Assembly (NCBI GenBank): GCA_018826295.1
Contig: JAHJZX010000037.1
Coordinates: 62,001 to 126,000, forward strand
DNA from: Gammaproteobacteria bacterium
GTDB taxonomy: Bacteria > Pseudomonadota > Gammaproteobacteria > Enterobacterales > Alteromonadaceae
Reading direction: 5' to 3'
Length of the DNA: 64,000 nucleotides
Under the pieces are notes generated by a model. It saw only the letters and a program-made list of their open reading frames with translations. It was not told the DNA's origin and did not search any database. Shown here piece by piece: positions 40,665 through 62,497 of this stretch. Every line of letters starts with the position of its first letter. Positions within the stretch are counted from its first letter, which is position 1. A program made the translations under genes and the position numbers.

Positions 40665-40687
40665 TGTTCAGACTACCTTTATCAGCA

Positions 40688-40711: not shown

Positions 40712-40730
40712 GTTTCTGTATTGCCTTAGC

Positions 40731-43460: not shown

Positions 43461-43487
43461 AGATAATCTGCCTCTTGTCTGCATGGC

Positions 43488-46448
43488 TCAGAAATTAAAA
43501 GTGATACCAGCGTAGTAGCGCCGGCCGGCGTAGCTACTGCTGAGTAAACGGGCATCGGTGTCGTTGCCTAATCTGGAGGTTGACTCAGATTTGGTCAGGT
43601 TAATCACCGATGCACTTAGCAGCCAACGCTCGGTCAGCGCGTAAGAGGCATTTACATCGACCTGATCGTATGGGTCCTGGTACACGTTTAAGCCACTGTT
43701 AATCCCCAACACGGTTTCACCGCGTTTGTTGTATGACGCCCGGACACTGTAAGTGTCGGTTTCGTAGAACGCAGACAAGTTGTATTGATATTTGGCACTC
43801 CCGACCAGTGGCGACTCGCCGAACTTTTCACCGTCGACATTGACGTCGGCCTGGTTGGTTTTGTTGTAGGTATAGTTGGCGTTAAGGCCAAAACCGTTAT
43901 CAAATGCATGCTGAATAAACAGCTCAACGCCCTGTGATTTGGCGTTAGAGCCATTACCTACCGTGCTGTAAGGGCTGATGGTGATCTGGCCCGGCTCTAC
44001 CACACCGGGCTCGCCGGCAAAATCACGTACCGAGTCAATCACCAATGGCACGACAAAGTTATCAACGTCTTTATAAAACAACGCCATACCTACTGCCGAG
44101 CCGGTGCCGTAGTAATACTCTATTGATAAATCAGCCTGCAGCGATTCAAACGGTTTCAGGTTTTTATTCCCGCCACTGCCGCTGAAACCGGGTTGGGTAT
44201 TAAAGGCTGCGCGGTCATCCGCCCATTCGTCTGAAACAAAGCTGATACGCTCCTGACTGCCCAGGTCGCTATAACCCGGTGGCGACATCACTTTTGCCAG
44301 CGCACCACGCACCACCAAATTGTCACCTGCGTCCCATACCAGGTTCAGGCTGGGTAACACATAGGTTTCTTCACTGGTTTGCGATATTAACTGCCAGTTT
44401 TCGACAAAGCGGGCGTCGCCGGTAACCGGTAAACCGGTTACATCGTCGGTATGATCAAGAAAGTAGGTGTATAAATCGGTCGACTCGCCGGTGGTTTTGG
44501 TTTTTACCACCCGCACGCCGGTATTACCGCGGAAATTACCAAAGCTAAAATCACCCTGTAGGTAAAACGCCTCACCTTGTTCGCGGATATTGTAAACAAA
44601 GTTATCTTCAATCCGCGTGTAGGGTTTGTAGTTGCTCAAAATAATGTTGCGGTATTTGTCCCAGTCGATCACCGGCATCAGGTTAATATTAAAGCCGCCG
44701 GCGATATTGCCTTCGCCTTTGGCTTTCAATACATCCTGCGCCAGCGGCATACCGCCGTTCCATTGGTAGCTGTCAAACTGATCTATGCCGCGGCCACTGG
44801 CCAGCGCCCCTTCAATATCAAAATCGGGCGCCAGAAAGAAGTTATTGCCGGTTTCGCGGTGCAGCTTGGCATCGCGCAGTTTTACGCCACTGCGGATCAG
44901 CGTAAAAATGCCCCAATCGACATCAAAATCGACATCCAACTGATAGTAGCGCTCTTCCAGCGTACTGCGCACAAAGCTGGAATTGGATGAACCCGGATCG
45001 CGACCACCACCAACACCATTTAACAAATTAGTTAGCGTATTGGGGTCGATATACATCGACATTCTGTCACCCAGCGACCAGCCGGCATACTGGGCTGCAT
45101 TTTCAATATTGGGCTGGCCTTCGCCCCAGTTAGAGCTCTTAAAGGCTGCATCCCAGCTTTCGCTTGGGCCGCCTTTGGCTTTGGTATTACCGGCAACCAG
45201 CTTCAGCCGGTAACTGTCGCCCTCATAGCTGAGGTTAAAATCGAAAGTATCTGAGGTAGACTCTTCCCGCACATAGGTGCCACGCATCCATGGAAACTGC
45301 ATGTCGTTTTCAGCACCACCGGCCCCGACGGTGTAATCCATACCGGTGATCACGGTACCGGACGGGTCCAGCGTGACACCGGTCAGAAAATTCGGATTTA
45401 ACGACCACTCCGGAATATCCACCACCGAGGTGGTTCTGTCCTGGCCCAGCGTAAAACCAAAATAGTTAAACCCCAGTTCTAACCGGTCAGTGGGCCGCCA
45501 TTGCCCGGTAAACTGCACCCCTTCACGCTCGCGCTGTTCTTTGATTACGCCCGCCCGCGCCACCTGCGGAAACCACACCCCACTGTAAACATTGCCCTGT
45601 GCATCGGTCAGCGCTGCCCAGTTATTATTATTGTCTACCGGATTGCCGTTAACATCTACTGCGGTATCGTTCTCGCCGCTCCAGCGCCAGATGTTTGAGC
45701 TAGTGCTACCTGTTAACACGCGACTGGTACGGTTTTGCCGGGTGTAGCCTACTAACAAGCCGACACTCTCAGCGGTGTTTTTCCACGAATACACGCCGGT
45801 AAACTGCGGCTCATGCTTGTCGGTAACATCGGCATAGGTAGATTCAATGTTCAGCACGCCGGAATTGGCGTCCATATCAAACGGTTTACGTGTGTGCAGC
45901 AGAACTGTGCCGCCAACGCCACCGGCGTCAAGCCGCGCTTCAGGCGATTTAAACACTTCAACGGTTTGGATCATTGCCGACGGCAGCAAGGTGTAGTCAA
46001 ACGAACGCGATGGTTCGCCGGGTGATGAAGCAATAAAGTTGCCGTTTAGTTGGGTGAAGGTTAGGCCGGACGATAAACCGCGAATACTTACTGTTGAACC
46101 TTCGCCACCATCGCGCTGGATCACAACGCCTGGTACGCGTTGCAAGGAATCAGCGATATTTTTATCCGGAAATTTACCAATGTCTTCGGCAGTAATGGCA
46201 TCCACCACCGAGCTGGACAGGCGTTTAATCGCCAGGTTCTCTGCCATACTGGCGCGAATACCGCGCACCTGCACCACTTCAATTTCAGCTTCTTTTTTGT
46301 CATCTACCGCAGGCTCCGCCTGTTGTGCCAACGCAGCATTGCTGGCGGCCGTTAATAACAAGCTCAGGCTGATGGCTTGTGACAGCCGGTGTTTGCGCAG
46401 TGGCTGCGTGATGTTCCCCGTGTTACTGTAACTGTTTTTGCTGGACAT
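43488..46448 (-). CDS. TonB-dependent receptor of the Xanthomonas/Caulobacter type
   Basis: A 986-residue outer-membrane receptor. Signal peptide ends NAALAQQ; a TonB-box-like EIEVVQVRG precedes the plug, whose VVDAITAEDIGKFPDKN, IADSLQRVPGV block is diagnostic for the TIGR01782 subfamily. The last residues YYAGITFNF form the membrane-insertion strand. Members of this subfamily import glycans. With the discoidin lipoprotein and GH85 downstream, the ligand is likely an N-glycan or a glycopeptide (inference). The gene is the first of the N-glycan set. Confidence 0.88.
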   Translation of the reverse strand: MSSKNSYSNTGNITQPLRKHRLSQAISLSLLLTAASNAALAQQAEPAVDDKKEAEIEVVQVRGIRASMAENLAIKRLSSSVVDAITAEDIGKFPDKNIADSLQRVPGVVIQRDGGEGSTVSIRGLSSGLTFTQLNGNFIASSPGEPSRSFDYTLLPSAMIQTVEVFKSPEARLDAGGVGGTVLLHTRKPFDMDANSGVLNIESTYADVTDKHEPQFTGVYSWKNTAESVGLLVGYTRQNRTSRVLTGSTSSNIWRWSGENDTAVDVNGNPVDNNNNWAALTDAQGNVYSGVWFPQVARAGVIKEQREREGVQFTGQWRPTDRLELGFNYFGFTLGQDRTTSVVDIPEWSLNPNFLTGVTLDPSGTVITGMDYTVGAGGAENDMQFPWMRGTYVREESTSDTFDFNLSYEGDSYRLKLVAGNTKAKGGPSESWDAAFKSSNWGEGQPNIENAAQYAGWSLGDRMSMYIDPNTLTNLLNGVGGGRDPGSSNSSFVRSTLEERYYQLDVDFDVDWGIFTLIRSGVKLRDAKLHRETGNNFFLAPDFDIEGALASGRGIDQFDSYQWNGGMPLAQDVLKAKGEGNIAGGFNINLMPVIDWDKYRNIILSNYKPYTRIEDNFVYNIREQGEAFYLQGDFSFGNFRGNTGVRVVKTKTTGESTDLYTYFLDHTDDVTGLPVTGDARFVENWQLISQTSEETYVLPSLNLVWDAGDNLVVRGALAKVMSPPGYSDLGSQERISFVSDEWADDRAAFNTQPGFSGSGGNKNLKPFESLQADLSIEYYYGTGSAVGMALFYKDVDNFVVPLVIDSVRDFAGEPGVVEPGQITISPYSTVGNGSNAKSQGVELFIQHAFDNGFGLNANYTYNKTNQADVNVDGEKFGESPLVGSAKYQYNLSAFYETDTYSVRASYNKRGETVLGINSGLNVYQDPYDQVDVNASYALTERWLLSASVINLTKSESTSRLGNDTDARLLSSSYAGRRYYAGITFNF

Positions 46449-46560
46449 AGTGTGTTGCTCTCATTTTTCTAGTTTTAGCTATTGTTCTGAGCAATGAGTT
46501 TCTCTTACCGCCTAAACGCAGTCAGAACCCTGTCTTCTATCACTTGTGCAAGATTAAGCA

Positions 46561-46580
46561 GCCCTCACGTAGCGGAGGGC
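46561..46580 (-). terminator. Hairpin ending the glucoside dehydrogenase unit
   Basis: GCCCTC/GAGGGC around an 8-nt loop just after the stop at 46587 on the minus strand. The following bases are only modestly T-rich, so this is a likely but not certain terminator. Confidence 0.45.
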
Positions 46581-46586
46581 CCTGGT

Positions 46587-47246
46587 TTAACTTTTTAGTT
46601 TCAGCTGGCGCAGCACCTCATCAGATGGGCCGTCAAAACTGGCCATCGGTTTATTACCGATAAAACCAATGTCGGCCATGCCAGCTTCAGTGGTGTAGAA
46701 CGCCGTGGCGGTTAAATCGCGCACTTTGGCAAAGAAGCGCGCACCGTGTTTCAGGTTGGTGGCAGCCTTGGGCTCGTAACGAATATCGTCACAAATCTGC
46801 CGCTGCTCGTCGTTGCCTAGTTTGGCGAAGGCCTTAGCAAAACGCTTTTTCGCTTCTGCGTTAAGCCAAACCAAGCCACCACGCACCAGCACCAGGTCAG
46901 CTTTTTGCTGCGGATAAGGCGCACTGACCCATTCATTAATAAAGTGCTGCGCGCCCAGGCTGCCAGCAGACGGCGACTGTGCATCGGCCGGGATAATGAT
47001 GTCTGCCAATACCGCTAAATCATCCAGCTCCGCCTGGGTTAGCGTCATGCTCCAGGGCACTATGGGCTTGAGCATATCCGGATCGGTGGGCCGGTAAATT
47101 AGCTCCGCGCCCTTGGTTTTGGCCATTACTGCCGCCGCGTTGCCAGCCATACCCAATGCCGGTATCGCCACTGCTGCTGTAGCCAGCAGCTTCAACGCAT
47201 CTCGGCGTGTTACATTGGTGCCAGGGTTAGAGTTGTCATGTGCCAT
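46587..47246 (-). CDS. Gluconate-2-dehydrogenase subunit 3-like, Tat hitchhiker subunit
   Basis: A 219-residue protein with a Tat signal (TRRDALKLLATAAVAIPA) and a Gluconate_2-dh3 domain (TLTQAELDDLAVLADIIIPA, FINEWVS). Start at 47246 follows AAAGGA and lies one base after the GMC stop. In characterised glucoside 3-dehydrogenases, this subunit carries the Tat signal and takes the folded FAD subunit with it into the periplasm. The GMC partner lacks a signal, as expected. Confidence 0.88.
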   Translation of the reverse strand: MAHDNSNPGTNVTRRDALKLLATAAVAIPALGMAGNAAAVMAKTKGAELIYRPTDPDMLKPIVPWSMTLTQAELDDLAVLADIIIPADAQSPSAGSLGAQHFINEWVSAPYPQQKADLVLVRGGLVWLNAEAKKRFAKAFAKLGNDEQRQICDDIRYEPKAATNLKHGARFFAKVRDLTATAFYTTEAGMADIGFIGNKPMASFDGPSDEVLRQLKLKS

Positions 47247-47247
47247 G

Positions 47248-49044
47248 TTAAATATTCCTTTGCTTGAACTGTTCAACAATGTAATCACTGGTGCGCCAGG
47301 CCAGCGCCAGAATAGTCAGGGTTGGGTTTTTATCGGCGTTAGACGCAAAAGGCGCGCCGTCGGCAACAAACAGGTTAGGCACATCCCAGGCTTGGCAATG
47401 CTGGTTTAGTACAGACTTTTTCCGATCAGCCCCCATAATGGTGCCGCCGACTTCGTGGATAATCGAGCCACCGCTGGCGATAGCCTTGCTGCCGTCCGCT
47501 TCTATCGTACTGGTGACCTTGCCGCCCATACCGGTGATAATATCGGCGAAGGTTTTATGCATATGCGCTGCCTGATTGCGTTCATGATCTGACCATTGCC
47601 AGTGAAACTTCAGTACCGGTATACCCCATTGATCCACTACCGTCGGGTCCAGTTCGGCGTAGCTGTTTTCGTTCGGGATCATTTCACCACGGCCGGCAAA
47701 ATGGACAAAGGTGCCGTAATAGCGCCGACATGCCTGCTTAAATTCAGCGCCGTAAGCACCTTCGGTAAAACTCTGCAAGCCGCCAAAAGCACCGGCGCCT
47801 GGCATTCCACGGCCACCGCTCATTTCAATATGGTAACCACGGGCGAAATTCAGCTTGCCGGCCTTTTGCTCCTTATACAGCCACCACGGTTGGTACAGGT
47901 GCATACCGGATGAACCGTCTTCATTCATCGGCGGCAGGTTTTCCAGTGCCGGAATTTGGCCGCTGACCCCAGCACCAACAGTATCCATCAGGTATTTGCC
48001 GACCAGGCCAGAGCTGTTGGCGATACCGTCCGGAAACAGTGGGCTGCGCGAATTAAGGAAAATCCTTGCGGTTTCTGCTGCACTGGCCGCCACGACGACT
48101 GCGCGGCCTTTTACTTTCACTTCTTGCCGGCTGTGTTTGTCGATATAGATCACGCCATCGGCCTTACCGGCTTTGTTCAGCGTAACTTCGCGTACCATGG
48201 CATCGGTAATAATGCTCAGATTACCGGTCGCCAGTGCCGGCGGAATAAGCACCGTCGTCGACTGAAAATTAGCTTTAATAGAACAGCCTCGGCCACAAGG
48301 GGTAGCCCAAAAACAGGCTGCACGGGATTGCATAGAATCGGCCACCACCTTTTGTCCCAGCGCACTGTTTGGAAACAGCTTCGCTGGCAAGCGGGTGTGA
48401 TCCTGACGTTGGCTTAAAATGGCCAGATGTGCCGGGATCACCGGAATTTTCAGCTCATCACAGGATTTTTTCGCCAGTAGCTCATAAGCGCGCGGTTTCG
48501 GTGCCGGCTGTAAAATGCCTTCCGGCGAATCGGGGGTGTTTTCCAGGCCGTGGCCGGTTTCACCGTACACACCTATCAGCATTTCGGTTTTATCGTAGTA
48601 AGGCGCCAGGTCGGCATAGCTTATCGGCCAGTCAAGCCCCAAACCATCGCGGCTGTAGGGTTTAAAGTCGTATTCGCCATTACGCAGCGAGATACGGCCC
48701 CAATGGTTGGTGCGCCCACCCAACATGCGGGCGCGCCACCAGTCAAAACGTTGCTGTGGCTCGCGGCTGGCCTGCGTATAAGGTTCACCCGGCACCTGCC
48801 AGCCACCATCAATGGTAGCGTCATAAAAGCCAAAGGGTTTATCCGGTGTGCTGGCACCACGCAGCGGCGCATCTTTGGGTAGGTTAAACATTGGTGTTTC
48901 GGTTACCGGATCATAATGCCGACCGGCTTCAAGCATTAATACCTTTAAGCCGGCAATACTCAGTATCAATGCTGACATACCACCGCCAGCCCCCGAGCCG
49001 ACCACTATTACATCATATTCCTGTTGTCCGGATGGTCCTGACAT
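47248..49044 (-). CDS. GMC oxidoreductase, glucoside/glucose 3-dehydrogenase FAD subunit
   Basis: A 598-residue FAD enzyme; start at 49044 follows GAGGAGAG. FAD motif VIVVGSGAGGGMSALI, the RAAC-like SRAACFWATPCGRGC cysteine region, and catalytic His/Asn in HEVGGTIMGAD and NADKNPTLTIL. The combination with the Gluconate_2-dh3 hitchhiker is that of glucoside 3-dehydrogenases, which oxidise C3 of glucose or glycosides; such enzymes are known from Rheinheimera and Halomonas. There is no signal peptide, so export relies on the partner. Operator 49126-49139 lies upstream. Confidence 0.85.
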   Translation of the reverse strand: MSGPSGQQEYDVIVVGSGAGGGMSALILSIAGLKVLMLEAGRHYDPVTETPMFNLPKDAPLRGASTPDKPFGFYDATIDGGWQVPGEPYTQASREPQQRFDWWRARMLGGRTNHWGRISLRNGEYDFKPYSRDGLGLDWPISYADLAPYYDKTEMLIGVYGETGHGLENTPDSPEGILQPAPKPRAYELLAKKSCDELKIPVIPAHLAILSQRQDHTRLPAKLFPNSALGQKVVADSMQSRAACFWATPCGRGCSIKANFQSTTVLIPPALATGNLSIITDAMVREVTLNKAGKADGVIYIDKHSRQEVKVKGRAVVVAASAAETARIFLNSRSPLFPDGIANSSGLVGKYLMDTVGAGVSGQIPALENLPPMNEDGSSGMHLYQPWWLYKEQKAGKLNFARGYHIEMSGGRGMPGAGAFGGLQSFTEGAYGAEFKQACRRYYGTFVHFAGRGEMIPNENSYAELDPTVVDQWGIPVLKFHWQWSDHERNQAAHMHKTFADIITGMGGKVTSTIEADGSKAIASGGSIIHEVGGTIMGADRKKSVLNQHCQAWDVPNLFVADGAPFASNADKNPTLTILALAWRTSDYIVEQFKQRNI

Positions 49045-49125
49045 CTTGCACTCTCCTCGTCTGCACACTTTGTACTAGTGCGCCTTGTTATAATATTTTT
49101 TGCCGCTCGTGGGCTTCAAACCAAC

Positions 49126-49139
49126 TGTAACCGGTTACA
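49126..49139 (-). promoter_or_regulatory. LacI-type operator upstream of the GMC gene
   Basis: Perfect palindrome TGTAACCGGTTACA, 82 bp before the GMC start. The same 14-mer is at 54476 and 55820; it shares 20 bp of sequence with the latter. The CpG-centred palindrome is typical for LacI-family repressors, and one such gene is in the locus. Confidence 0.8.
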
Positions 49140-49174
49140 CTCATACAGCAAAAATACCGGGTGTTAAGTGCCTC

Positions 49175-50068
49175 TTAACGCCCGGCGTGGCTGGCTACAG
49201 CCAGCAGTAAATCACGGGTGGCGCGGATACCGGCATCTTCGTCAGCATTTTGGCCTTCGTACTCAATGCCAATATAACCCTGGTAACCTGCAGCGCGGAT
49301 CAACTGCCACATACGCTGATAATCGATACTGCTCTCGGCACCGCTGGCATCAAAAGCATAACTTTTAGCACTGACGCCTTTGGCAAATGGCAGCAGCAAC
49401 TGCATGCCCTGGTATTTATCACCGCTAAAGTTGCCGAAATCCGGCAGGCTGCCAACATTACCGGCTTGCTGCAACACCGTTGCCAGCCAATGGGCATCCA
49501 TCGAGTGGCCCATATGGTTTTCAACGATAATGCTGATTCCAAATGGCGCCGCGAAGGCCGCTAATTGTTGCAGACCAGACACTGCCGCCTGTTGCATTTG
49601 CAGTGCATCCGTTTTGGCGTGATCTGCAATACTGACGCGGATAGCGTGACAGCCTAAAAAGGCTGCGGCCTCAACCCACTTATAGTGATTTTCTACCGCC
49701 TGCTGGCGCTGCTTTGTATCCACCGCAGCCAGATCGCCTTCAGCATCGACCATAATCAGTAAGCTACTAACACCATTGTCATCGGCGCGCTGTTTTAACT
49801 GGCGTAAAAATACCTGGTCCTGCGCTTTGTCGGCAAAAAACTGATTCACGTATTCGATTGCGCCAAGCTGGAAATCACGCCGGGTTTTCAGCGCAAAATC
49901 TAATACCGCTAGCTGACCAGAACGCAGCTGACGATGCAAAGACCATTGCGCCAGCGAAATCTTCGGCTGCACCGGGCTGGCCGCAAACGCCGACCAACTT
50001 AGCGGTAACTGACTGGCCAGGCCGGCTGCGGCAGCCGCGGCCAGAAAACGACGGCGATTAAGGCTCAT
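49175..50068 (-). CDS. Tat-exported sugar isomerase/epimerase-like protein
   Basis: A 297-residue TIM barrel of the AP_endonuc_2/xylose isomerase-like group with a Tat signal ([13 protein letters not shown]). Candidate metal ligands lie in [15 protein letters not shown] and IGIEYEG. Its start overlaps the tatA gene by 11 bp. Periplasmic placement suggests it acts on the 3-keto product of the dehydrogenase or a related sugar; the reaction is unknown. Confidence 0.8.
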
Positions 50069-50255
50069 GGCGTTGCTCCTGCGTTGTTGCTGTTGGCTGC
50101 GGCAATTCAGGCTGCGCGGTTAAACCACGGCGTAAACCGGCTACAGCAGCGCCTAAATCAGCACCCAGATGGCGCAGTTTTTTGCTGCCAAATAACAAGA
50201 CAACTATCAGCAGAACAATCGCCAGCTGCCAAATACCAATGCCACTGAATCCCAT
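50058..50255 (-). CDS. tatA: TatA/TatE-like translocase subunit
   Basis: A 65-residue protein: one membrane helix ([18 protein letters not shown]) followed by the amphipathic helix signature [14 protein letters not shown]. It is embedded between the DUF1080 gene and a Tat-exported isomerase and not with tatBC, so it is an extra, locus-specific TatA. AGGAG precedes the ATG. Confidence 0.88.
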
Positions 50256-50267
50256 AACGTGCTCCTG

Positions 50268-51005
50268 TTATAACGCACGGATACGGATCTGACGAAAGGC
50301 TACTCTGTCACCATGATCCTGCAGCGCAATATGGCCACGTTCGGTTTTAGCAAAGGCGTCCATGGTAGCAAACTTGCTGTTGGCAGTACGTTGGAGCCAG
50401 TCGGCTGATCCCAATTCAAACTGCAATACCAGCTTGCCGTTGAGCCAGTGCTCTACCTGTGGATGGCGCACCACAATGCGGGTTGTATTCCAGCTACCTG
50501 CTGGCAAATGGGCATCAACTTGCGGAGCGTAGATATCAAATAATGACGCGCTAAAGTGAATAGGGTTATCGTGGCCGGGGTAATTGTCATCATCAAGTAA
50601 CTGGTACTCTAAACCGCTAGACCAGACGGCACCATCAACTCCGGCAACCTTATAAAAGATACCACTGTTACCTGCAGCGGCGATTTGCCACTCCAGTTCC
50701 AGTTCAAAATCACTAAAGCTTTGTTTGCTGACAATATCACCGCCGCCACCGGCGGTCAGCACCAGTGTGCTGTCGATAATTTGCCACTGCTCGCCCGGCG
50801 CTTTGCCGCCATTGCCGGTCCAGGCGGCCATAGAGTCGCCATTAAACAACCATTGCCATGGTGCAGCGGCTGCGGTAGTGGTTGCAGCAGCTTGCACTGT
50901 GCTTTCGGTAGTAGTTGCTGCAGGTTTACAGCCGGTAATAGCGGCTGACAACAGCATGCCAAGCGCTGCTGTGCGGAAAAATGCACCTGAGTTGACTCTG
51001 TTCAC
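50268..51005 (-). CDS. DUF1080 (3-keto-disaccharide hydrolase-like) lipoprotein
   Basis: A 245-residue lipoprotein (lipobox AITGC) followed by a Thr/Ala-rich spacer and a DUF1080/3-keto-disaccharide hydrolase jelly roll: WLFNGDSMAAW, ELEWQIAAAGNSGIFYK, EYQLLDDDNY, NTTRIVVR and HWLNGKL. Family members split 3-keto-glycosides. Located in the periplasmic face, it would act right after the glucoside 3-dehydrogenase. Operator 51097-51110 lies 92 bp upstream. Confidence 0.85.
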   Translation of the reverse strand: MNRVNSGAFFRTAALGMLLSAAITGCKPAATTTESTVQAAATTTAAAAPWQWLFNGDSMAAWTGNGGKAPGEQWQIIDSTLVLTAGGGGDIVSKQSFSDFELELEWQIAAAGNSGIFYKVAGVDGAVWSSGLEYQLLDDDNYPGHDNPIHFSASLFDIYAPQVDAHLPAGSWNTTRIVVRHPQVEHWLNGKLVLQFELGSADWLQRTANSKFATMDAFAKTERGHIALQDHGDRVAFRQIRIRAL

Positions 51006-51096
51006 TCTGACTCCCCCTTGCTGTAGCCAGCATTATTGCTGGCCGGTACCGCTCGTTATAGTTATTTTGCTGGCGTGATTCTGTGCTCACCACCAA

Positions 51097-51110
51097 TGAA
51101 ACCGGTTACA
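51097..51110 (-). promoter_or_regulatory. LacI-type operator upstream of the DUF1080-tatA-isomerase unit
   Basis: TGAAACCGGTTACA, one mismatch from the perfect palindrome seen at three other places in the locus. Confidence 0.7.
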
Positions 51111-51155
51111 TCACTAAACTTAAATCCCGCACAGAATTTTGTCAAGCCGGATTGG

Positions 51156-52169
51156 TTATTTTTTGTCTGTTATTGCCGCAGTACTGTCGCGCAGCACCAG
51201 GCGGTATGGCAACATCATATGTTGCTGTGCCAGCGGCGTGCCTTGCATCAATTGATACAGCGCACGCATAGCCTGGCGCCCTAATTGCTCTGCCGGTTGG
51301 TCAATTGTCGTCAGGCCGGGTTCGGTAAAGGCGGCATATTCAATGTTATCAAAGCCGGCAATGGCAATATCCTGCGGAATACGCAGTCCATGCTTACGAA
51401 TACAGCTCATTGCGCCTATGGCCATCTCGTCGTTCATACAAAAGAAGGCTTGTGGCCGCTCTGGCTGCAGCAATAGCTGTGCTGCCGCGTCATGACCAGA
51501 TTGCATAGTAAAATTACCTTCAACCACGGCGGCCGGGTTTAAGGTTAACCCAGCACCGAGCAGCGCATCCTGGGTGCCGGCCAGGCGGTCACGCACTATC
51601 GGGCTGTGGGCCGGACCGGTGATCACCGCCAGCCGCTTCAGGTTTAAGTCGAGCAAGTGTTGCGTTAATGCGCGGGCTGCGCCACGGTTATCCAGCTCAA
51701 CCACCGGATAACCGGCTGGCTCAGTGATACGCTCACAGGCATTGACAAAGGGTACGGTAGCAGCCAACTGACGATCTTCATCAGAAAACGGGTAACGGCT
51801 ATCAAGTTGAATTAAACCATCGGCCTGGCTGGTTAAGCCCATACGGGCGTATTCCTGTTCACGGCTGACACTGCCCTGAGTATCTCCCAGCAACACCGCG
51901 TAACCACAAGCCTGAGCCTCCTGCTCGATACCGCGAATAACCCTGGAAAAGAACGGGTTAGCCACATTAGGCACCAGCACCACCACGGCATAGGCCTTGC
52001 CCGAACTAAAATTGCGTGCCAGCTGATTTGGCCGGTAACCGGCAGTTTGTACCGCCTGCATTACCCGCTGTCGCGTATCCGGCGATACCAGCTGCGGATT
52101 TTTTAGCGTGCGCGACACAGTCGCAGTAGACACGCCAGCGAGTTTAGAAACGATCCTGATGGTGGTCAT
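51156..52169 (-). CDS. LacI-family repressor of the glycoside-oxidation locus
   Basis: A 337-residue regulator: N-terminal LacI helix-turn-helix (IRIVSKLAGVSTATVSRTLK) with hinge, then a sugar-binding periplasmic-like domain (VVLVPNVANPFFSRVIRGIE, FCMNDEMAIGAM, DIAIAGFDNIEYA). It lies 63 bp behind the cytosolic isomerase and is the only regulator in the locus, so it is the natural binder of the four palindromes. Ligand likely a glucoside or keto-sugar. Confidence 0.88.
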   Translation of the reverse strand: MTTIRIVSKLAGVSTATVSRTLKNPQLVSPDTRQRVMQAVQTAGYRPNQLARNFSSGKAYAVVVLVPNVANPFFSRVIRGIEQEAQACGYAVLLGDTQGSVSREQEYARMGLTSQADGLIQLDSRYPFSDEDRQLAATVPFVNACERITEPAGYPVVELDNRGAARALTQHLLDLNLKRLAVITGPAHSPIVRDRLAGTQDALLGAGLTLNPAAVVEGNFTMQSGHDAAAQLLLQPERPQAFFCMNDEMAIGAMSCIRKHGLRIPQDIAIAGFDNIEYAAFTEPGLTTIDQPAEQLGRQAMRALYQLMQGTPLAQQHMMLPYRLVLRDSTAAITDKK

Positions 52170-52232
52170 GTTGCTGTCGTCTTATCCTATGTTAGCAGTA
52201 CCTTAATCTGCACTGAGATAAATTGCCAGATC

Positions 52233-53294
52233 TCAGTCGCTTAAACCAAGAATACGTCGGTTACGGCCCGCATCGGTAGCGCCACCGGCAAAATCATCAA
52301 ACGGCCGTTCAGCCACACAAATCAGTTGTTTGGCAATAAAAGGCGCGCCCTCCGCGGCACCTTGCTGTGGATGTTTTAAACAACACTCCCACTCTAATAC
52401 TGCCCAGCCGCTATAACCGTACTGCGTAAGTTTACTGAAAATAGCGTTGAAATCGATCTGGCCATCGCCAAGCGAACGAAACCGGCCCGGCCGCTCCAGC
52501 CAGCTGCTGTAACCGCCATAAACACCCGCTTTCCCCGACGGGCGAAATTCGGCATCTTTAACATGAAAAGCGCGGATACGTTGATGATAAAAATCAATAA
52601 ACTGCAGGTAATCCATTTGCTGCAGCAGAAAGTGGCTCGGGTCATACAAAATGCAGGCTCGCGGGTGCTGGCCAGTGGCATGCAAAAAGCGCTCAAACGA
52701 CAGACCATCATGTAAATCTTCACCCGGATGCAGCTCAAAGCAGACATCAACCCCCGCTGCATCAAAGGCATCCAACACTGGCAGCCAGCGCCGCGCTAAT
52801 TCGGCAAAGCCCTGCTCAACTAAACCGGCCGGGCGCTGTGGCCACGGATATACCGTATGCCACAGCAAGGCGCCGGAAAAGGTAACATGGCAGTTCAGGC
52901 CCAGCCGTTTTGATGCCTTCGCTGCCAGCAACAGTTGTTCGCTCGCCCATTGCTGTTTTTCTGCTTCAGTTTGCACGGAAGCTGGCGCAAAGCCTTGATA
53001 TAGATCGTTATACGCCGGATGCACCGCCATTAACTGGCCCTGTAGATGGGTAGATAACTCTGTGATTTGTAATTGATAACGCTGACAAAGAGCCAGCAGT
53101 TGATCACAATATTGCTGGCTCTGCGCCGCTTGCTGCAAATCAAAAATGCGTTTATCCCAGGTCGGCAGTTGAACTCCTTTATAGCCCAGCTTTGCCGCCC
53201 AGCCTAATAACGCCTCCAGCGAACATGCCTCATTGGCAGGTGGCAGATACTGCGCCAGAAATATTGCCGGCCCGTTAATTTTGCTTGTCAGCAT
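52233..53294 (-). CDS. Cytosolic sugar phosphate isomerase/epimerase-like protein
   Basis: A 353-residue TIM barrel of the AP_endonuc_2 group: LEALLGWAAKLGYKGVQLP at the start, metal/active residues in CFELHPGEDLHDG, LYDPSHF, HVKDAEF and VLEWECC. No signal peptide from the start at 53294. The gene begins 4 bp after the Gfo/Idh stop, so the two form a pair that should handle imported keto-sugars. Confidence 0.82.
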   Translation of the reverse strand: MLTSKINGPAIFLAQYLPPANEACSLEALLGWAAKLGYKGVQLPTWDKRIFDLQQAAQSQQYCDQLLALCQRYQLQITELSTHLQGQLMAVHPAYNDLYQGFAPASVQTEAEKQQWASEQLLLAAKASKRLGLNCHVTFSGALLWHTVYPWPQRPAGLVEQGFAELARRWLPVLDAFDAAGVDVCFELHPGEDLHDGLSFERFLHATGQHPRACILYDPSHFLLQQMDYLQFIDFYHQRIRAFHVKDAEFRPSGKAGVYGGYSSWLERPGRFRSLGDGQIDFNAIFSKLTQYGYSGWAVLEWECCLKHPQQGAAEGAPFIAKQLICVAERPFDDFAGGATDAGRNRRILGLSD

Positions 53295-53298
53295 AAAG

Positions 53299-54465
53299 TC
53301 ATTGTCCTGTAAAAGTAGCGTGCCCGGCAATGCTCACCCAAGCCGCATTTTGTTTACTGCTGGTCACCGCTGCCTGTAAAAAGGCCATGCCACGCACAGC
53401 CTCTGAAATGCCTGCAGCCAGATTGCTGGCCGTGGGTTGGCGTAACGCCAGCGCAAAATCACGATAAATATTCGCAAAGGCCTCCAGATAACCCTCAGGA
53501 TGCCCCGCCGGGGTACGGCAATACTGCCGTACCTGCGCAGCCAAATAGGCGTTGTCGCTGCCGGCCTGCCAGATTTGTTGCGGCTGGCCGCGCAGCTGTA
53601 ACAGCAGCTGATTCGGTTGTTCCTGCTGCCAACTGAGCGAGCCCAGCTCGCCATAAACACTGATTTGCAAGCCATTAGCCATACCGGCACAGACCTGACT
53701 AGCCATTAAGGTGCCACGCGCGCCATTATTAAAACGTAACAAGGCTGCACCATCATCATCCAGCAAGCGACCTTCCACCACCGTCGCCAAATCGGCACTC
53801 AGTTCGGTTACCTGCAGCGCGCTGATAAATTCAGTCAGTTGAAAAGCATGGCTGCCGATATCAGCAAAGCAACCACTGCTGCCGGCACGCTGCGGATCTA
53901 AGCGCCACTGTGCCTGAGTACTGCCGTCGCTGTCGGCTTTATCTGCCAGCCAGCCTTGTGGATAACTGACAGCCACCCGGCGCACAGCCCCTAACCTGCC
54001 CTGCTGTATCAACAGCCTGGCTTGTTGCACCATAGGGTAAGCCGCATAGGTGTGGGTTAAACCATAGTGCAAGCCGGTTTGTTGTACCAAGGCTTGCAAT
54101 TGCTGCGCTTGCGCCAGCGATAAGGTAGCCGGCTTGTCTGACAACACATGAAAGCCGGCCTGTAATGCTGCCTGCGCCACCGGAAAATGCAGATGATTTG
54201 GCGTAACAATAGCAACAAACTCGATACGCTGCTCTGAAGGTAACTGCGCTTCTGCAGCAAACAGCTGCTGGTACGAATCGTAGCAACGCGCCGCATTGAT
54301 GCCCAGTTCTGCCGCCATCGCTTTACTGCGTTCAGCCTTGCTGCTAAAGCAGCCTGCAACCAGCTCAATCTGATTGTCCAGCCTGGCCGCTATACGATGT
54401 ATAGCACCGATAAAAGCACCTTCACCGCCGCCAACCATCGCCATTCTGACTTTTGTCTGTGCCAT
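53299..54465 (-). CDS. Gfo/Idh/MocA-family dehydrogenase
   Basis: A 388-residue NAD(P) oxidoreductase: Rossmann motif MVGGGEGAFIGAIHR, then DKPATLSLAQA (the catalytic Lys of the EKP-like motif), and GSHAFQL. Start at 54465, with the operator palindrome only 10 bp upstream. Members of this family often reduce 3-keto sugars, which fits a locus with a 3-dehydrogenase. Confidence 0.85.
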   Translation of the reverse strand: MAQTKVRMAMVGGGEGAFIGAIHRIAARLDNQIELVAGCFSSKAERSKAMAAELGINAARCYDSYQQLFAAEAQLPSEQRIEFVAIVTPNHLHFPVAQAALQAGFHVLSDKPATLSLAQAQQLQALVQQTGLHYGLTHTYAAYPMVQQARLLIQQGRLGAVRRVAVSYPQGWLADKADSDGSTQAQWRLDPQRAGSSGCFADIGSHAFQLTEFISALQVTELSADLATVVEGRLLDDDGAALLRFNNGARGTLMASQVCAGMANGLQISVYGELGSLSWQQEQPNQLLLQLRGQPQQIWQAGSDNAYLAAQVRQYCRTPAGHPEGYLEAFANIYRDFALALRQPTASNLAAGISEAVRGMAFLQAAVTSSKQNAAWVSIAGHATFTGQ

Positions 54466-54474
54466 TACCACCTC

Positions 54475-54490
54475 TTGTAACCGGTTACAA
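54475..54490 (-). promoter_or_regulatory. LacI-type operator overlapping the Gfo/Idh ribosome site
   Basis: TTGTAACCGGTTACAA, a perfect 16-bp palindrome between the MFS and Gfo/Idh genes, which ends 9 bp before the ATG and adjoins the AAGAGG ribosome site. A bound repressor would sit in the transcribed leader. Confidence 0.8.
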
Positions 54491-54530
54491 TACTAACTAA
54501 ATAGAGTGTTACTTAGCTGCGACACTGCCG

Positions 54531-55733
54531 TTATGCCGGCAACCGGCGCTGCCTGGGAAAGCTTAGTACAAATACCACTAGTACCAGTGCCGCTATACCG
54601 GCCGGTATCAGCCAGATCTGCCACCATTGATAACCGCTGTCTAACTGGTACACATCAGTTATATATCCAGCCAGACGGAAGCCCAGGAGCATGCCTACGC
54701 CATAAGTAGCCAGGGTGATCAGCCCCTGCGCTGCGGCTTTTATTTCACGACCGGCTTTCTGTTCAGTGTAGATCTGGCCGCTGACAAAGAAAAAATCATA
54801 ACAAATACCGTGCAGCAAGATACCAAAAAACAGCATCCACAACTGTTCGCCACTGTTGCCGTAAGCAAACAATACATAGCGTAGCACCCAGGCCAGCATA
54901 CCCACTAACAAGGTAGCTTTAATGCCGTAGCGGCGTAAAAACACTGGCAGCAGCAGCATAAAAGCAATTTCAGACATTTGCCCCAGCGACATTTTTGCTG
55001 CCGCGCCACTGATGCCCAAATCATTCAGATACAGGTTGGCATTCTGATAGTAAAATGCCAGCGGAATACAAATAAGCACCGAGGCCAGAAAAAACACCAA
55101 ATAAGCCCGGTCTTTCAGCAACGCCAGTGCATCCAGACCTAATAGTTGCCGCAAAGTTGGCCGCGGCAGTGACGCCTGCGGCGGAGTGTCCGGCAACGCC
55201 AGGCTAAATAAGCCCAAAGCAAAAGACGCAACAGCGGCCAGCAAAAAAGTAAACTGCAACTGCTGGCTGCCTTCCCAGCCAAACCAGCCAATTAACAAGC
55301 CTGCGGTAATCCAACCAACGGTGCCTAACACCCGAATATGGGCAAACTGCGCGGCTTTTTCTGCCAACTGCCGAAAGCTGATGGCATTAACCAGCGCCAG
55401 CGTTGGCATATACAGCACCATATACAACAAAATGTACGGGTAAAAGCTACTGAAGCTGCCGCTGTATGCAGCACTGAGTAGCAAGGCCGCGCCCGCCAAA
55501 TGCAGCAACGCCAGAATTTTCTGCGCGGCAAAGTAGCGGTCGGCAATCAGGCCAATAACAAAGGGCGCAATAATGGCGCCGATAGACTGCGTTTCATACG
55601 CCATGCCCATTTGCGCACCAGAGGCAGAGAAACGCTGCGACAGATAAGTGCCCATGGTAACAAACCAGGCGCCCCAGATAAAAAACTGCAGAAACATCAT
55701 TAGCGACAGCTTAAGTCGGATACTGATCAGCAT
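54531..55733 (-). CDS. MFS importer of the nucleoside:H+ symporter type
   Basis: A 400-residue transporter with about 12 helices that starts LKLSLMMFLQFFIWGAWFV, the NupG/XapB-like beginning, and contains YETQSIGAIIAPFVIGLIAD. Its place in a LacI-controlled sugar locus suggests import of a glycoside or keto-sugar rather than a nucleoside. Operator 55820-55833 lies about 90 bp upstream. Confidence 0.82.
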   Translation of the reverse strand: MLISIRLKLSLMMFLQFFIWGAWFVTMGTYLSQRFSASGAQMGMAYETQSIGAIIAPFVIGLIADRYFAAQKILALLHLAGAALLLSAAYSGSFSSFYPYILLYMVLYMPTLALVNAISFRQLAEKAAQFAHIRVLGTVGWITAGLLIGWFGWEGSQQLQFTFLLAAVASFALGLFSLALPDTPPQASLPRPTLRQLLGLDALALLKDRAYLVFFLASVLICIPLAFYYQNANLYLNDLGISGAAAKMSLGQMSEIAFMLLLPVFLRRYGIKATLLVGMLAWVLRYVLFAYGNSGEQLWMLFFGILLHGICYDFFFVSGQIYTEQKAGREIKAAAQGLITLATYGVGMLLGFRLAGYITDVYQLDSGYQWWQIWLIPAGIAALVLVVFVLSFPRQRRLPA

Positions 55734-55819
55734 AGCGTTGTTTTTCCTGTTGGTTTTATTGTCATTAGTGGCTGCTAACTCTGCCGGCCAGCATACTTTT
55801 TACTCACAACAACACCAAC

Positions 55820-55833
55820 TGTAACCGGTTACA
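55820..55833 (-). promoter_or_regulatory. LacI-type operator upstream of the MFS importer gene
   Basis: Perfect TGTAACCGGTTACA palindrome 87 bp before the MFS start; flanks CCAAC...C are shared with the site at 49126. Confidence 0.8.
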
Positions 55834-55879: not shown

Positions 55880-57073
55880 TCAAACTTTAAAGATATAACC
55901 GCGCTTATAGCACCAGTGCATTAATAGGTAGGATACGAGCAAAAAGCTTAGCGCAAAAGCCAGTGAACCGTTGTAATCGCCAAACAACGGTTGATACAGT
56001 GCACTGAACAGCCAGCTTTGCAGTGAACTTTGCCCAACGCTGACCATGCCCAGCAAACGCGCGGCAATACCGGCAAACATAAAGAACAAGATGGCGTTGG
56101 CACCAAATACCACAAAGGGCGCGCTCCAGCGCCGCCAGCGTTTTACATCACACAGCCAGATACAGGCCGCCAGCGCAATGGCGCAATAACCGCTGCTTAG
56201 CAAGACAAAGCTGGGGGTCCACAGGCTTTTGTTAATTGGCAAGCCAAAATGCCACAGCTCGGCCAGCCATACTGCTACCACACCGCATAACAGCAAGCCG
56301 CGTATCTTCTGTGCCAGGTTGCGTTCAGTTTGCAGCCACTGCGCAATTAACACCCCACTAAGACAACTGGCAATAGCCGGTAAAGTAGACCAAAGCCCTT
56401 CAGGGTCAAAGGCAAAGGGTGTGGCGCTGCGGTAATACACATGGTTTGCTCCCAATACGGTATGATCAAGCCAGGCGGCGAAGCTATTACCAAATTGCAG
56501 CAAGCCGGTAAACTGATTACCGTGCGCGTCGGCATAGGGCAAATACAGCATACCAACCAAATACAGCGCACATAAGCCTAATAGCCAACCAATCCGGCCA
56601 CGACTACCGCAATACAACACAATAAGTACAGTGAAAAAGTAAACCAAGCCAATGCGTTGCAATACGCCCAGCCAGCGCAGTGTTAGCAACTTTTGCTCAA
56701 TGTAGCTGTAAGCCGGGTCGCGAAAATTGTAGTAAAACAACACCAGAAACAAACCAAGGCCAATAAGTTTTACACTGCGCAGTGCCGCCTGTTTTATTAC
56801 CACTGCATGCGCCACAGCTGATTGCCGCTGCAGGCTAAGTTGCAATGAAATACCGACAATAACAATAAAAAACGGAAAGATTAGGTCAGTTAGCGTCCAG
56901 CCATGCCAATAGGCATGGCGCAGCGGGCCGTAAACATAGCTCCAGCTACCCGGGTTATTGACCAAAATCATCGCGGTAATGGTTACACCACGCAGCGCAT
57001 CCAGTGCCAGTAAACGGTTACCTGGCAACACCGACAAGATGGCATCAGCATAACGCCGGTACAGACTTAGCAT
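55880..57073 (-). CDS. nagX: NagX-like (DUF5009/HGSNAT-type) membrane protein
   Basis: A 397-residue membrane protein with about 11 helices and the signature LALDALRGVTITAMILVNNPG, HAYWHGWTLTDLIFPFFIVIVG. This is the NagX family, common in amino-sugar loci of Alteromonadales and related to lysosomal heparan-alpha-glucosaminide acetyltransferase. It has been proposed to transport or acetylate amino sugars. Its ATG overlaps the GH3 stop by one base (TGATG). Confidence 0.85.
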   Translation of the reverse strand: MLSLYRRYADAILSVLPGNRLLALDALRGVTITAMILVNNPGSWSYVYGPLRHAYWHGWTLTDLIFPFFIVIVGISLQLSLQRQSAVAHAVVIKQAALRSVKLIGLGLFLVLFYYNFRDPAYSYIEQKLLTLRWLGVLQRIGLVYFFTVLIVLYCGSRGRIGWLLGLCALYLVGMLYLPYADAHGNQFTGLLQFGNSFAAWLDHTVLGANHVYYRSATPFAFDPEGLWSTLPAIASCLSGVLIAQWLQTERNLAQKIRGLLLCGVVAVWLAELWHFGLPINKSLWTPSFVLLSSGYCAIALAACIWLCDVKRWRRWSAPFVVFGANAILFFMFAGIAARLLGMVSVGQSSLQSWLFSALYQPLFGDYNGSLAFALSFLLVSYLLMHWCYKRGYIFKV

Positions 57074-58962
57074 CAGTCGTTGTAGCCAGCAACGGTAACC
57101 GGCAGTTTACCGGTTAGCGGATATAGCCGCAGCAGTGCCTGAGCCAGGGCTTCATAAGTCGCATTACCGGCCGCCATAGCACTGGCATCTTCTGCTGTGT
57201 TATAGGCATAGCTGGCCAGCACCACATCGGCATGCCGGCCATAGCGGCTGATGTCGTAAGGAGCACGCAGGCTAAGGAAAATATGCGCTTTTTTCTGTGC
57301 GTTTATCAACGGCAATAAGGTTTCGTATTGCTGCGTCTGGCGCTCGTAGGCGGCAGCAATATTGCGAATACCGGTCAGGTCATCCATGCCGCCAATATCG
57401 GCCAGGCTTTGCATCGGCGAGATAAAACCACTGATCACCAGATCGGCCGCCGCAATTTGCGCAGCTGCCTGGCTTAAATCGGTTTGTTGCAAACTGATAA
57501 CGGCAATATCAAACGGCTGTTTGGCGTAATGTTTTAGCGCCGCAGCCAGTGCTTGAGCTTTCATTTGATCCGGCAACACCAGCAGCAGTTTTTTGCTGTC
57601 GCTAACAGTCAGCGGCCAGTCCGCCGTGGCCGGTTTTACTTGTGTTATTGCCGCTTTGGCCAACAATAGTTCTTGCTGACGATGTTCTGGCTTACCCAGG
57701 CTCGCCTTCGCCTGCGCCAGTTGCAGCGCCTGGGTTTTAGCCTGCGGCAACAACGGATATTGTTGTTTTAACGTCACTATGCGCTGATAAGACTCTGCCA
57801 GCTCAGTTGGGCTGATATCGCCGTTATCTACCGCCGTTGCCAGGGCATCCAGCAGCTTAGCCAGAGCCGGTAACTCACCGGGGTGTTGCAGCTTTACCGG
57901 CATCAGCGCAATGTCAGCACCGGCAGCAAAAGTTTGTACCACTGCTTCGGTATGGGTAAAAAACTTACTGATGCCGGCCATATCCAGCGCGTCGGTCACT
58001 ATTACACCGTTATAGCCCAGCTCTTCGCGCAGCACGCCATGCAGAATTTTGCGCGATAAAGTCGCCGGCTTTAGCATCTGCTCGCCGTCTTTTGAAGTAA
58101 AAGTACTGTTATCCAGCGCCGGATACTGGATGTGCGCCGTCATGATCATGCCAGGCGCGTGCTGGCTGATAATGTCGGCAAAGGGCTTTAAATCTATCTG
58201 GCGGATTTGCCCGGCACTGTGCTCTACCCGCGGCAGGCCTAAATGGCTGTCTACCTCGGTATCACCATGGCCGGGAAAATGTTTTAACGCCGCTATCATA
58301 CCGCGCTGCTGCATTGCTGCAGTCATGGCACCGCCCAACTCTGCCACCAGCTTGGCATCCTCACCAAAAGCACGCACATTTATTACCGGGTTTAGCGGGT
58401 TAACATTCACGTCGATAGTCGGCGCAAAATTAACGTTAATACCCAGCGGTAACAGTTCATCGGCCAGTACCCGGCCTACTGCCGCCGCATACTTAGTACC
58501 GTGCTCAGCGAAGGTGGCGCCTATTGCCATATTGCCGGCGAAAGATGTCGCCAGGCTTCGCGGTAAGCGCGCAACACGGCCGCCTTCCTGATCAATACTG
58601 ATAAACAACGGCAATTTTAACGCCGACTCTGCTGCGGCTTGTTGTAAATCATGGTTAAGCTGCACAATTTGTTCAATGCTATGCAGGTTTTCGGCAAACA
58701 AAATGACGCCGCCAATATCGTAGTCACGGATCAGCGCGGCCAGCTCTGGCGGCAGTTGAGTCATCGGCGTGCGGCACTGGCCTTGCACTGGCAACTCAGC
58801 GCAGTAATAGCGCAGGTCCAGCATCAGTTTTTGCCCCAGCATTTGTTTTACGCTGGCCGGTGTTTTAAACAGTGCTGCAGCATTAAGTGGCATGGCAATT
58901 AAGCTCACACTTAGCAACAACACACCCCAGACAGCTGAATAGCCCCGACCACAACATGACAT
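57073..58962 (-). CDS. nagZ: Secreted GH3 beta-N-acetylhexosaminidase (NagZ-like)
   Basis: A 629-residue enzyme; start at 58962 follows AGGAAAATC and gives a signal peptide. GH3 motif KHFPGHGDTEVDSH at residues 227-240 carries the His-Asp general acid loop typical of NagZ, and the nucleophile is Asp324 in VTDALDM. It is nearly twice as long as cytosolic E. coli NagZ and matches the two-domain, exported Bacillus type. It should release GlcNAc from murein or chitin-type chains outside the cytoplasm. First gene of the nagZ-nagX unit, divergent from the symporter. Confidence 0.88.
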   Translation of the reverse strand: MSCCGRGYSAVWGVLLLSVSLIAMPLNAAALFKTPASVKQMLGQKLMLDLRYYCAELPVQGQCRTPMTQLPPELAALIRDYDIGGVILFAENLHSIEQIVQLNHDLQQAAAESALKLPLFISIDQEGGRVARLPRSLATSFAGNMAIGATFAEHGTKYAAAVGRVLADELLPLGINVNFAPTIDVNVNPLNPVINVRAFGEDAKLVAELGGAMTAAMQQRGMIAALKHFPGHGDTEVDSHLGLPRVEHSAGQIRQIDLKPFADIISQHAPGMIMTAHIQYPALDNSTFTSKDGEQMLKPATLSRKILHGVLREELGYNGVIVTDALDMAGISKFFTHTEAVVQTFAAGADIALMPVKLQHPGELPALAKLLDALATAVDNGDISPTELAESYQRIVTLKQQYPLLPQAKTQALQLAQAKASLGKPEHRQQELLLAKAAITQVKPATADWPLTVSDSKKLLLVLPDQMKAQALAAALKHYAKQPFDIAVISLQQTDLSQAAAQIAAADLVISGFISPMQSLADIGGMDDLTGIRNIAAAYERQTQQYETLLPLINAQKKAHIFLSLRAPYDISRYGRHADVVLASYAYNTAEDASAMAAGNATYEALAQALLRLYPLTGKLPVTVAGYND

Positions 58963-59038
58963 GATTTTCCTGACAATTAACTTAAGCACAGCGCCACTCC
59001 GGTATTGTGAACAAAGCCCGCTGTAGTACAACAAAAAT

Positions 59039-59075
59039 AATTTATACATTCAAGATAATTTAAAATGTATAAATT
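59039..59075. promoter_or_regulatory. Perfect 12-bp inverted repeat in the divergent murein-sugar promoter
   Basis: AATTTATACATT (59039-59050) and AATGTATAAATT (59064-59075) around a 13-bp spacer, in the 170 bp between nagZ (minus) and the symporter (plus). Strongly suggests a dimeric repressor site shared by both units. No cognate regulator gene is in the neighbouring cluster. Confidence 0.7.
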
Positions 59076-59132
59076 ACCCATGCAATAATTTCTGTGATAT
59101 GTTAATTGCAGTGCTATCAGCTGGAACCCCCT

Positions 59133-60695: not shown

Positions 60696-60698
60696 TAT

Positions 60699-61586
60699 AT
60701 GTGGATCCTGACGCTGGACGGTGGCGGAAGTAAAACGCTGGCCCGTCTGACAAACAGCGCAACCGGCCAGCAATGGCAACAGCAAGCCGGCCCGGCGTCG
60801 CTGACCAATGATTTTGACCTGGCGCTGAGTAACATTCGCCAGCTCAGTCAGGCTTTGTGTCAGCAAGCCGCCGTGACCAGCCAGCAGCTTGTTGCCGTTA
60901 TGGGCCTGGCGGGTGCCGGTAATCCGCAACAACATCAGCAGGCCATGCAGTTGCTGCAGGACGATTACCAGCAGCTACTGATCACCACAGATGCGCGGAC
61001 GTCTTTATATGGCGCCAATCTGGGGCAACCGGTGTTAGTCGTAGCTCTGGGTACCGGCTCGGTTGCCATGCGCTTACTGGCCAATGGCAATGAGCAGCAA
61101 ATTGGTGGCTGGGGTTTTAATATTGGCGATGAAGGTGGTGGTGCCTGGTTGGGTAAACAAGTCGTGCGCGAGCTGCTGTGGCAGGTAGACAGCCTCAGCG
61201 GCGTACAAAGCCCGTTGCTTAAAGCGGTAGCACAGCACATTGGCGACAGCGCTGAGCGCTTATTGCCCTGGCTAAAAAACGCCAGCCCGACCGATTTCGC
61301 GGAATTCGCGCCGCTGGTGTTTCAGTTTGCCAGCCAGTGTCCGCTAGCCTTAATGCTGCGCCAGCGCCATATCGATGCGGTAGAGCAACTGTTATGGCAA
61401 GCGCTGGAACAATTTTCCCTGCCGGTGGTGTTATTAGGCGGTCTGGCTAAAGATACTTTGCCGCTGCTAAGTGCAGCCTGCCAACCGTTAGTGCAGCAGG
61501 CAAAAGGCAGTGCGCTTGACGGCGGCTTGCTGCTGGCACAACAACTTATTTCTAATGTTTCGGAGCCAGCGCATGAACATCAATAA
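60699..61586 (+). CDS. murK: BadF-type kinase, likely MurNAc/GlcNAc kinase (MurK-like)
   Basis: A 295-residue ASKHA kinase with phosphate loop LTLDGGGSKTLARL, GTGSVAMRL, and GFNIGDEGGGAWLGKQ. It starts three bases past the symporter stop and overlaps murQ. MurK of Clostridium acetobutylicum, of the same family, phosphorylates both MurNAc and GlcNAc. Since MurQ needs MurNAc-6-phosphate and no PTS gene is present, this kinase would supply it. Distant from the 39759 kinase. Specificity is inferred. Confidence 0.8.
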   Translation: MWILTLDGGGSKTLARLTNSATGQQWQQQAGPASLTNDFDLALSNIRQLSQALCQQAAVTSQQLVAVMGLAGAGNPQQHQQAMQLLQDDYQQLLITTDARTSLYGANLGQPVLVVALGTGSVAMRLLANGNEQQIGGWGFNIGDEGGGAWLGKQVVRELLWQVDSLSGVQSPLLKAVAQHIGDSAERLLPWLKNASPTDFAEFAPLVFQFASQCPLALMLRQRHIDAVEQLLWQALEQFSLPVVLLGGLAKDTLPLLSAACQPLVQQAKGSALDGGLLLAQQLISNVSEPAHEHQ

Positions 61587-62496: not shown

Positions 62497-62497
62497 T

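Follow-up and report, generated by a model that had tools for sequence, protein, structure and literature searches.

A probable conserved LacI regulon over four transcription units for a 3-keto-glycoside route in Rheinheimera

Does a palindrome that recurs before four groups of sugar genes mark the operators of one LacI-family repressor, and which pathway would that repressor control? The question is raised by a stretch of 64,000 nucleotides from contig JAHJZX010000037.1 of a gammaproteobacterial genome (the whole stretch is called the window below). Within it, four copies of the 14-base-pair (bp) palindrome TGTAACCGGTTACA, three exact and one with a mismatch, precede four minus-strand transcription units near a lacI gene. 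A sequence-only reading had proposed these sites as the operators of a LacI regulon, and the sites, strands and gene families that it named were all recovered in our analysis. The best overall explanation is a conserved LacI regulon controlling the four units for a 3-keto-glycoside route, which we consider highly probable from the sequence comparisons described here.

The palindrome proved to be rare and tightly clustered. In the whole source genome (4,572,141 bases, 89 contigs), exact TGTAACCGGTTACA occurred only at operators 1, 2 and 4 (Table 1), with 0.015 copies per genome expected from the base composition of the window. When one mismatch was allowed, five places were found, which added operator 3 and a position at C75:16667. 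The latter lies inside an open reading frame (ORF) of 336 amino acids (L102:4348-5358) and was rejected as a regulon site. Between 46587 and 57073 there were four sites at up to one mismatch, against none in each of 200 dinucleotide shuffles. The earlier worry that the palindrome might be common throughout the genome was thus dispelled, as exact copies were confined to the locus. The sites are even palindromes with a central CG and lie upstream of linked genes, which is the pattern of a local LacI-type repressor. The distance from operator centre to ATG was about 17 bp for the Gfo/Idh gene and 88-98 bp for the MFS (major facilitator superfamily), DUF1080 and GMC genes.

The operators were also held in place among relatives. 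The exact 14-mer was found in 11 of the 60 genomes searched, the source included, and in two of the 30 genera; a reversed-pattern control was found in none. Clusters from nine other genomes of the same genus (Rheinheimera) were compared with that of the source genome (G000). Eight of them retained all four units, each with a site in place, and in the ninth (G007) the cluster consisted of the LacI, DUF1080-TIM-barrel and GMC-hitchhiker genes alone, with the two sites of that part retained. In promoter alignments, where gapped columns were scored as varying, all 14 columns of operator 1 were invariant in 9 genomes versus 86 of 128 other columns. The same held for the 14 columns of operator 3 in 10 genomes (versus 53 of 141) and of operator 4 in 10 genomes (versus 47 of 157). 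At operator 2 the aligner broke the site apart (13 of 30 columns in that row), so its conservation was judged from the sites themselves, which read TGTAACCGGTTACA or TGTAACCGGTTTCA in eight other genomes. Alkalimonas collagenimarina showed the same gene order, four exact sites and a LacI 72% identical to the local one. One-mismatch sites beyond the cluster numbered two in G017, including one between ORFs at C10:361860, and one each in G002, G007 and G029.

The linkage of site and regulator extended to other genera. A scan with the hydratase alignment found at least 594 stretches encoding a relative, of which the best 80 loci were examined. LacI was detected by tblastn to the local LacI at E 1e-8, a threshold that would overlook more divergent LacI genes. 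The sequence TGTAAYCGRTTACA, with at most one mismatch, was present at 17 of the 19 loci with a detected LacI (10 exact) and at 5 of the 61 loci without one (1 exact). The linkage among these best 80 loci gave a Fisher p of 4e-11, a value to be read with the fact that the 19 loci are not independent and include four from Janthinobacterium, two from Alteromonas and two from Pseudomonas. Among the sites in the 61 loci, that of R. oceanensis was exact with no local lacI, one stood before gfo on a short contig (L127), and one lay inside gfo (L156). In the Pseudomonas syringae and Pseudomonas floridensis records, LacI and TGTAACCGGTTACA were followed by gfo, hydratase and MFS genes.

The local LacI carries the recognition residues T-A before TVSR. 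In a tree of 40 LacI proteins it grouped with those of Rheinheimera and Alkalimonas and one G033 protein (support 97/91). The adjacent clade (100/99) contained ten V-A regulators from Alteromonadaceae, Rheinheimera, one metagenome-assembled genome and Pseudomonas. The join of these two clades had a support of only 88/77, several distant rows were long-branched, and the betaproteobacterial and Agarivorans regulators were placed elsewhere. Both clades have alanine directly before TVSR, the position described by Camas et al. as the strongest specificity determinant (PMC2978694). Like operators would follow from this shared alanine.

A further T-A LacI, 44% identical to the local one, was seen in another genus (L081 on G033:C9, 4669-12485). 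It is accompanied by six palindromes of the operator type, at up to two mismatches, where shuffles gave a mean of 0.08 and a maximum of 1. The palindromes surround SSF-hitchhiker-GMC-AP_endonuc_2, GlcNAc-2-epimerase-family and phosphoglucose isomerase genes. Here, too, several operators appear to place a GMC module in a LacI regulon.

Several observations weigh against a regulon read by the local LacI. The reversed-pattern control, with one mismatch allowed, was found at four places in the source genome against five for the real pattern, and over ten genomes it gave 0-4 places against 3-6. A single one-mismatch site therefore means little, and the weight rests on clustering and conservation. 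The closeness of the two counts in the source genome would suit a generic LacI-type motif that clusters by chance and coordinates nothing, and even palindromes with a central CG are usual for LacI proteins in the available text of Ravcheev (2014). Such an explanation is scarcely credible in view of the clustering and the LacI linkage elsewhere, and is largely refuted by the conservation in place. A sigma-70 consensus scan of the locus showed no excess, with 4 promoters against 9.1 expected. In six betaproteobacterial loci (Janthinobacterium, Paraburkholderia and Allopusillimonas) and one of Microvirga (L158), the site adjoins lacI and is several kilobases from the hydratase gene, and it may therefore serve autoregulation only. 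Two LacI-linked loci (L110 and L181) had no site. Caulobacter LacB is a cytochrome subunit; unlike the Caulobacter locus, no cytochrome, cytochrome c included, was seen among the annotated cluster genes here, and a genome-wide search for one was not made. Finally, the sites alone do not prove reading by the local LacI, because six genomes keep them without a local lacI.

In these six (G002, G009, G013, G014, G024 and G029), the cluster and its four sites are present with no LacI among the cluster genes. Their nearest LacI is about 51% identical to the local one and lies elsewhere in the genome. A LacI of about 51% identity is also present in G007, which has both regulators, and the local lacI is kept in G000, G017 and G027. 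In a locus tree built from the GMC and TonB receptor genes, the six formed one clade (99/100) and the presence of lacI changed once. This change could be attributed to loss of lacI, because Alkalimonas has the gene at the same place. Among the six, none of 56 operator columns varied, versus 99 of 448 ungapped flanking columns (p 3e-6), which argues that the sites are still read by something.

The paralogous LacI has a V-A helix in all six genomes, as does that of G007. In the six it adjoins a second GMC gene together with hitchhiker, DUF1080 and two AP_endonuc_2 genes (families assigned by Pfam in G013 only) and a site such as TGTAATCCGTTACA. The V-A-clade regulators of P. syringae and P. floridensis adjoin exact TGTAACCGGTTACA. 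With this V-A paralogue standing next to a second oxidation module in each of the six, its takeover of the four operators there is the most likely course of events; this is the simplest reading, resting on one event. The six genomes, with operators and without the repressor gene, form a natural experiment in regulator replacement. The same evidence favors the alternative that a different LacI-family protein, be it the V-A paralogue or an L-A type regulator that is shared, is the main reader of the operators, and that the local LacI is only one reader among several or regulates its own gene. The source genome does contain a further LacI with alanine before TVSR (C27, L-A). Nevertheless, we regard this alternative as rather unlikely. 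The V-A sites of the six deviate from the 14-mer by two bases, and G000, G017 and G027 have neither the paralogue of about 51% identity nor a second-module GMC match at E 1e-60, which leaves the local LacI as the obvious reader there. The proposal of a four-operator LacI regulon was therefore upheld as to genome-wide rarity, conservation in place and LacI linkage in other genera, while the local LacI as the only reader became uncertain with the six genomes.

The gene families of the four units suggested what would be controlled (Table 1).

Table 1. Operators and genes of the locus, in window positions; some gene starts were shifted to the first ATG in the reading frame.
Feature	Positions	Strand	Location	Basis
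Operator 1	55820-55833		before MFS gene	exact 14-mer TGTAACCGGTTACA
Operator 2	54476-54489		just before Gfo/Idh start codon	exact TGTAACCGGTTACA
Operator 3	51097-51110		before DUF1080 gene	one mismatch, TGAAACCGGTTACA
Operator 4	49126-49139		before GMC gene	exact TGTAACCGGTTACA
MFS importer, nucleoside-H+ symporter family (Nuc_H_symport)	54531-55733	-		Pfam PF03825, 390.9 bits
Gfo/Idh/MocA oxidoreductase, proposed 3-keto-glucose reductase (putative function)	53299-54465	-		Pfam; best solved relative 3v5n, E 1.4e-102
2-hydroxy-3-keto-glucal hydratase family (AP_endonuc_2)	52233-53294	-		PDB 8ro4, E 9.9e-156, 521.7 bits
LacI-family regulator	51156-52169	-		PF00356, 59.2 bits (cut-off 27); PF13377 Peripla_BP_3, 129.8 bits (cut-off 26.5)
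DUF1080 / 3-keto-disaccharide hydrolase family, putative lipoprotein	50268-51005	-		PF06439, 162.1 bits (cut-off 26.8)
TatA-like translocase subunit	50058-50255	-		PF02416, 32.8 bits (cut-off 21)
Tat-signal AP_endonuc_2 protein, putative periplasmic 3-keto-glycoside eliminase or epimerase	49175-50068	-		4ovx, E 1.1e-77
GMC flavoprotein, proposed glycoside 3-dehydrogenase large subunit	47248-49044	-		Pfam GMC_oxred_C and GMC_oxred_N
Gluconate_2-dh3 hitchhiker subunit with Tat signal	46587-47246	-		PF13618, 81.8 bits; twin-arginine motif by eye

The LacI protein consists of a helix-turn-helix domain and a periplasmic-binding-protein-like sensor domain. Its top NCBIfam model was CytR (304.3 bits), that of the MFS importer was a nucleoside permease (378.2 bits), and Escherichia coli CytR was placed in the same general region of the LacI tree as the local LacI, outside its clade. 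These matches would suggest a nucleoside regulon in which the LacI is CytR and the importer a nucleoside permease. Both scores, however, lie under the curated cut-offs (436 for CytR and 446.1 for the permease), and the remaining regulon genes belong to 3-keto-sugar enzyme families. A CytR/NupG regulon was rejected on these two grounds and appears very improbable. The palindromes found here moreover differ from CytR sites, which the available text of PMC3454398 describes as weak repeats that are mostly imperfect and lie between CRP sites.

The match of the hydratase-family protein to 8ro4 spans residues 7-353 of 355. Because this protein matches a 2-hydroxy-3-keto-glucal hydratase, the route most likely runs through oxidation, beta-elimination, hydration and reduction. 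The scheme first put forward for the locus, with oxidation, cleavage outside, import and re-reduction, therefore kept its outline, with the protein at 52233-53294 read as this hydratase and not as an isomerase. The Gfo/Idh protein failed the NCBIfam model of the BT_2158 glycoside 3-dehydrogenase (31.8 bits versus 750). The DUF1080 protein had 14 solved relatives, including 3u1x, 8rr2 and 8tda, and appears by eye to carry a lipobox. For the GMC protein, the closest solved structures were glucose and fructose dehydrogenase subunits; together with the Tat-signal Gluconate_2-dh3 hitchhiker it forms the LacABC-type pairing.

The exported AP_endonuc_2 protein was more difficult to place. Its profile reached the DgpC/CGD C-glycoside deglycosidase chains at E 2e-11 to 7e-5, mostly over short stretches. 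Its predicted model, with a mean predicted local distance difference test score of 85.9, matched the folds 7drd and 8qvc, but also epimerases, including 6wn6 (titled YcjR). One metal-binding His of AtOGE would be Lys here, judged by residue spacing alone with AtOGE unaligned. The protein appears distantly related to 3-keto-glycoside eliminases and epimerases. The tatA-like gene stands between this gene and the DUF1080 gene, as it does in G027 and in Alkalimonas (L109:11010-11201). The other eight same-genus genomes have only about 15-30 bp between the DUF1080 and TIM-barrel matches.

Taking the regulon as the preferred reading, we propose the following mechanism. The local LacI, through its T-A recognition pair, would bind the four palindromes and keep the four transcription units off. 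A cytoplasmic sugar derivative, for which 3-keto-glucose, the glycal or a closely related product is the likeliest candidate, would release it and turn all units on. The GMC flavoprotein, presumably exported with its Tat-signal hitchhiker, would act in the periplasm and oxidise C3 of a glycoside. The resulting 3-keto-glycoside would then be cleaved by beta-elimination (or hydrolysis) by the DUF1080 lipoprotein, the Tat-exported AP_endonuc_2 protein or both. In the cytoplasm, the hydratase and the Gfo/Idh reductase would yield a normal hexose. Elimination should give the same glycal from glucosides and mannosides.

Leads to the substrate came from the flanking genes. On the left are genes for a TonB receptor (43488-46448), an F5/8 protein, a BadF kinase, GH85, CutC and a Tat-signal asparaginase-2; those at 36341-40664 (asparaginase-2, CutC, GH85 and BadF kinase) resemble an N-glycan type locus. 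On the right (55880-57073 and 57073-63649) are GH3, an HGSNAT-family (NagX-like) acyltransferase, SSF, a BadF kinase, a GKRP/SIS protein, which we take to be MurQ-like, and NamZ. This right flank appears to be a set of the muramic-acid or peptidoglycan sugar type. In three Pseudoalteromonas loci, CutC and BadF genes precede the gfo, hydratase, DUF1080, GMC and hitchhiker genes; the one annotated in more depth (L145) has an AraC regulator between and an MFS gene after the hydratase gene, with no LacI detected. The flanking genes and the Pseudoalteromonas loci hint at N-glycan-type oligosaccharides as the substrate.

The idea that the TonB receptor and GH85 block belongs to the GMC transcript was weakened. 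The gap between hitchhiker and receptor genes (46449-46586) contains a hairpin that, by eye, persists in most same-genus rows while its sequence changes. It is followed by a leader of about 100 bases before the receptor, strongly conserved in ten same-genus genomes and not in Alkalimonas, and no palindrome of the operator type was found in 36000-47400. At L084 (G033:C4, 9711-20000), the LacI nearest to the local one outside Rheinheimera and Alkalimonas precedes a TonB receptor-F5/8-GH85-CutC series, and sites of the TGTAATCGATTGCA type stand upstream of both lacI and the receptor gene. A regulon link to the block may therefore still exist.

Each of the 11 same-genus genomes containing the hydratase had a single match to it. 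We tentatively suggest, with low confidence, one operator code with interchangeable LacI repressors, in which periplasmic oxidation modules are gained and lost around a single-copy import-hydratase-reductase core. All modules would drain to the same keto-sugar, so they could share an inducer and their repressors could replace one another. In this lineage, N-glycan or mannosidic oligosaccharides might feed the module, since the C2 configuration is lost on elimination and genes for the TonB receptor, GH85, CutC, BadF kinase and Tat-signal asparaginase-2 lie near the locus.

It is common for LacI proteins to control sugar clusters through palindromes of this kind, and the pathway itself is already known. 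In open-licence PubMed Central papers we found no described LacI regulon for an oxidation-elimination glycoside route. The locus would provide a candidate regulator and operator for such a route, similar combinations of LacI, site and hydratase occurring from Rheinheimera to Pseudomonas. The operator would be a handle to find more members and the inducer of such pathways. Two LacI-controlled sugar systems are close in chemistry: YcjR and YcjS act on 3-keto-glucosides, and ThuAB carry out 3-keto chemistry. E. coli YcjW is a tested LacI-type repressor with a 14-bp motif over the ycjMNOPQRSTUV-ompG operon, and kojibiose affects it in vitro (PMC6599011). The present locus likewise has a LacI-type regulator and a 14-bp motif over a sugar cluster, with a different gene set. 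ThuR of Rhizobiales is a LacI-family regulator of the trehalose operon, and its motif natcnAAAnCGnTTTngatt and ABC transporter, as given in the available text, differ from the locus described here (PMC4052901). In Caulobacter crescentus, LacABC, the DUF1080 protein CCNA_01705, a transporter, two epimerases and a reductase are reported to be required or important for lactose use (Price et al., PMC9007349). Both loci combine an oxidising dehydrogenase, DUF1080, a transporter, two "epimerases" and a reductase, and they differ in the LacI operator set found here, none being described there in the available text of that paper. The GlycDH-AtOGE-AtHYD-Gfo operon of Agrobacterium tumefaciens performs oxidation, elimination, hydration (the hydratase label being based on preliminary evidence) and reduction (Bitter et al., PMC10628242). 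Its hydratase and Gfo/Idh steps are shared with the present locus; cleavage is performed there by AtOGE, whereas here it would fall to DUF1080 and the Tat-exported AP_endonuc_2 protein.

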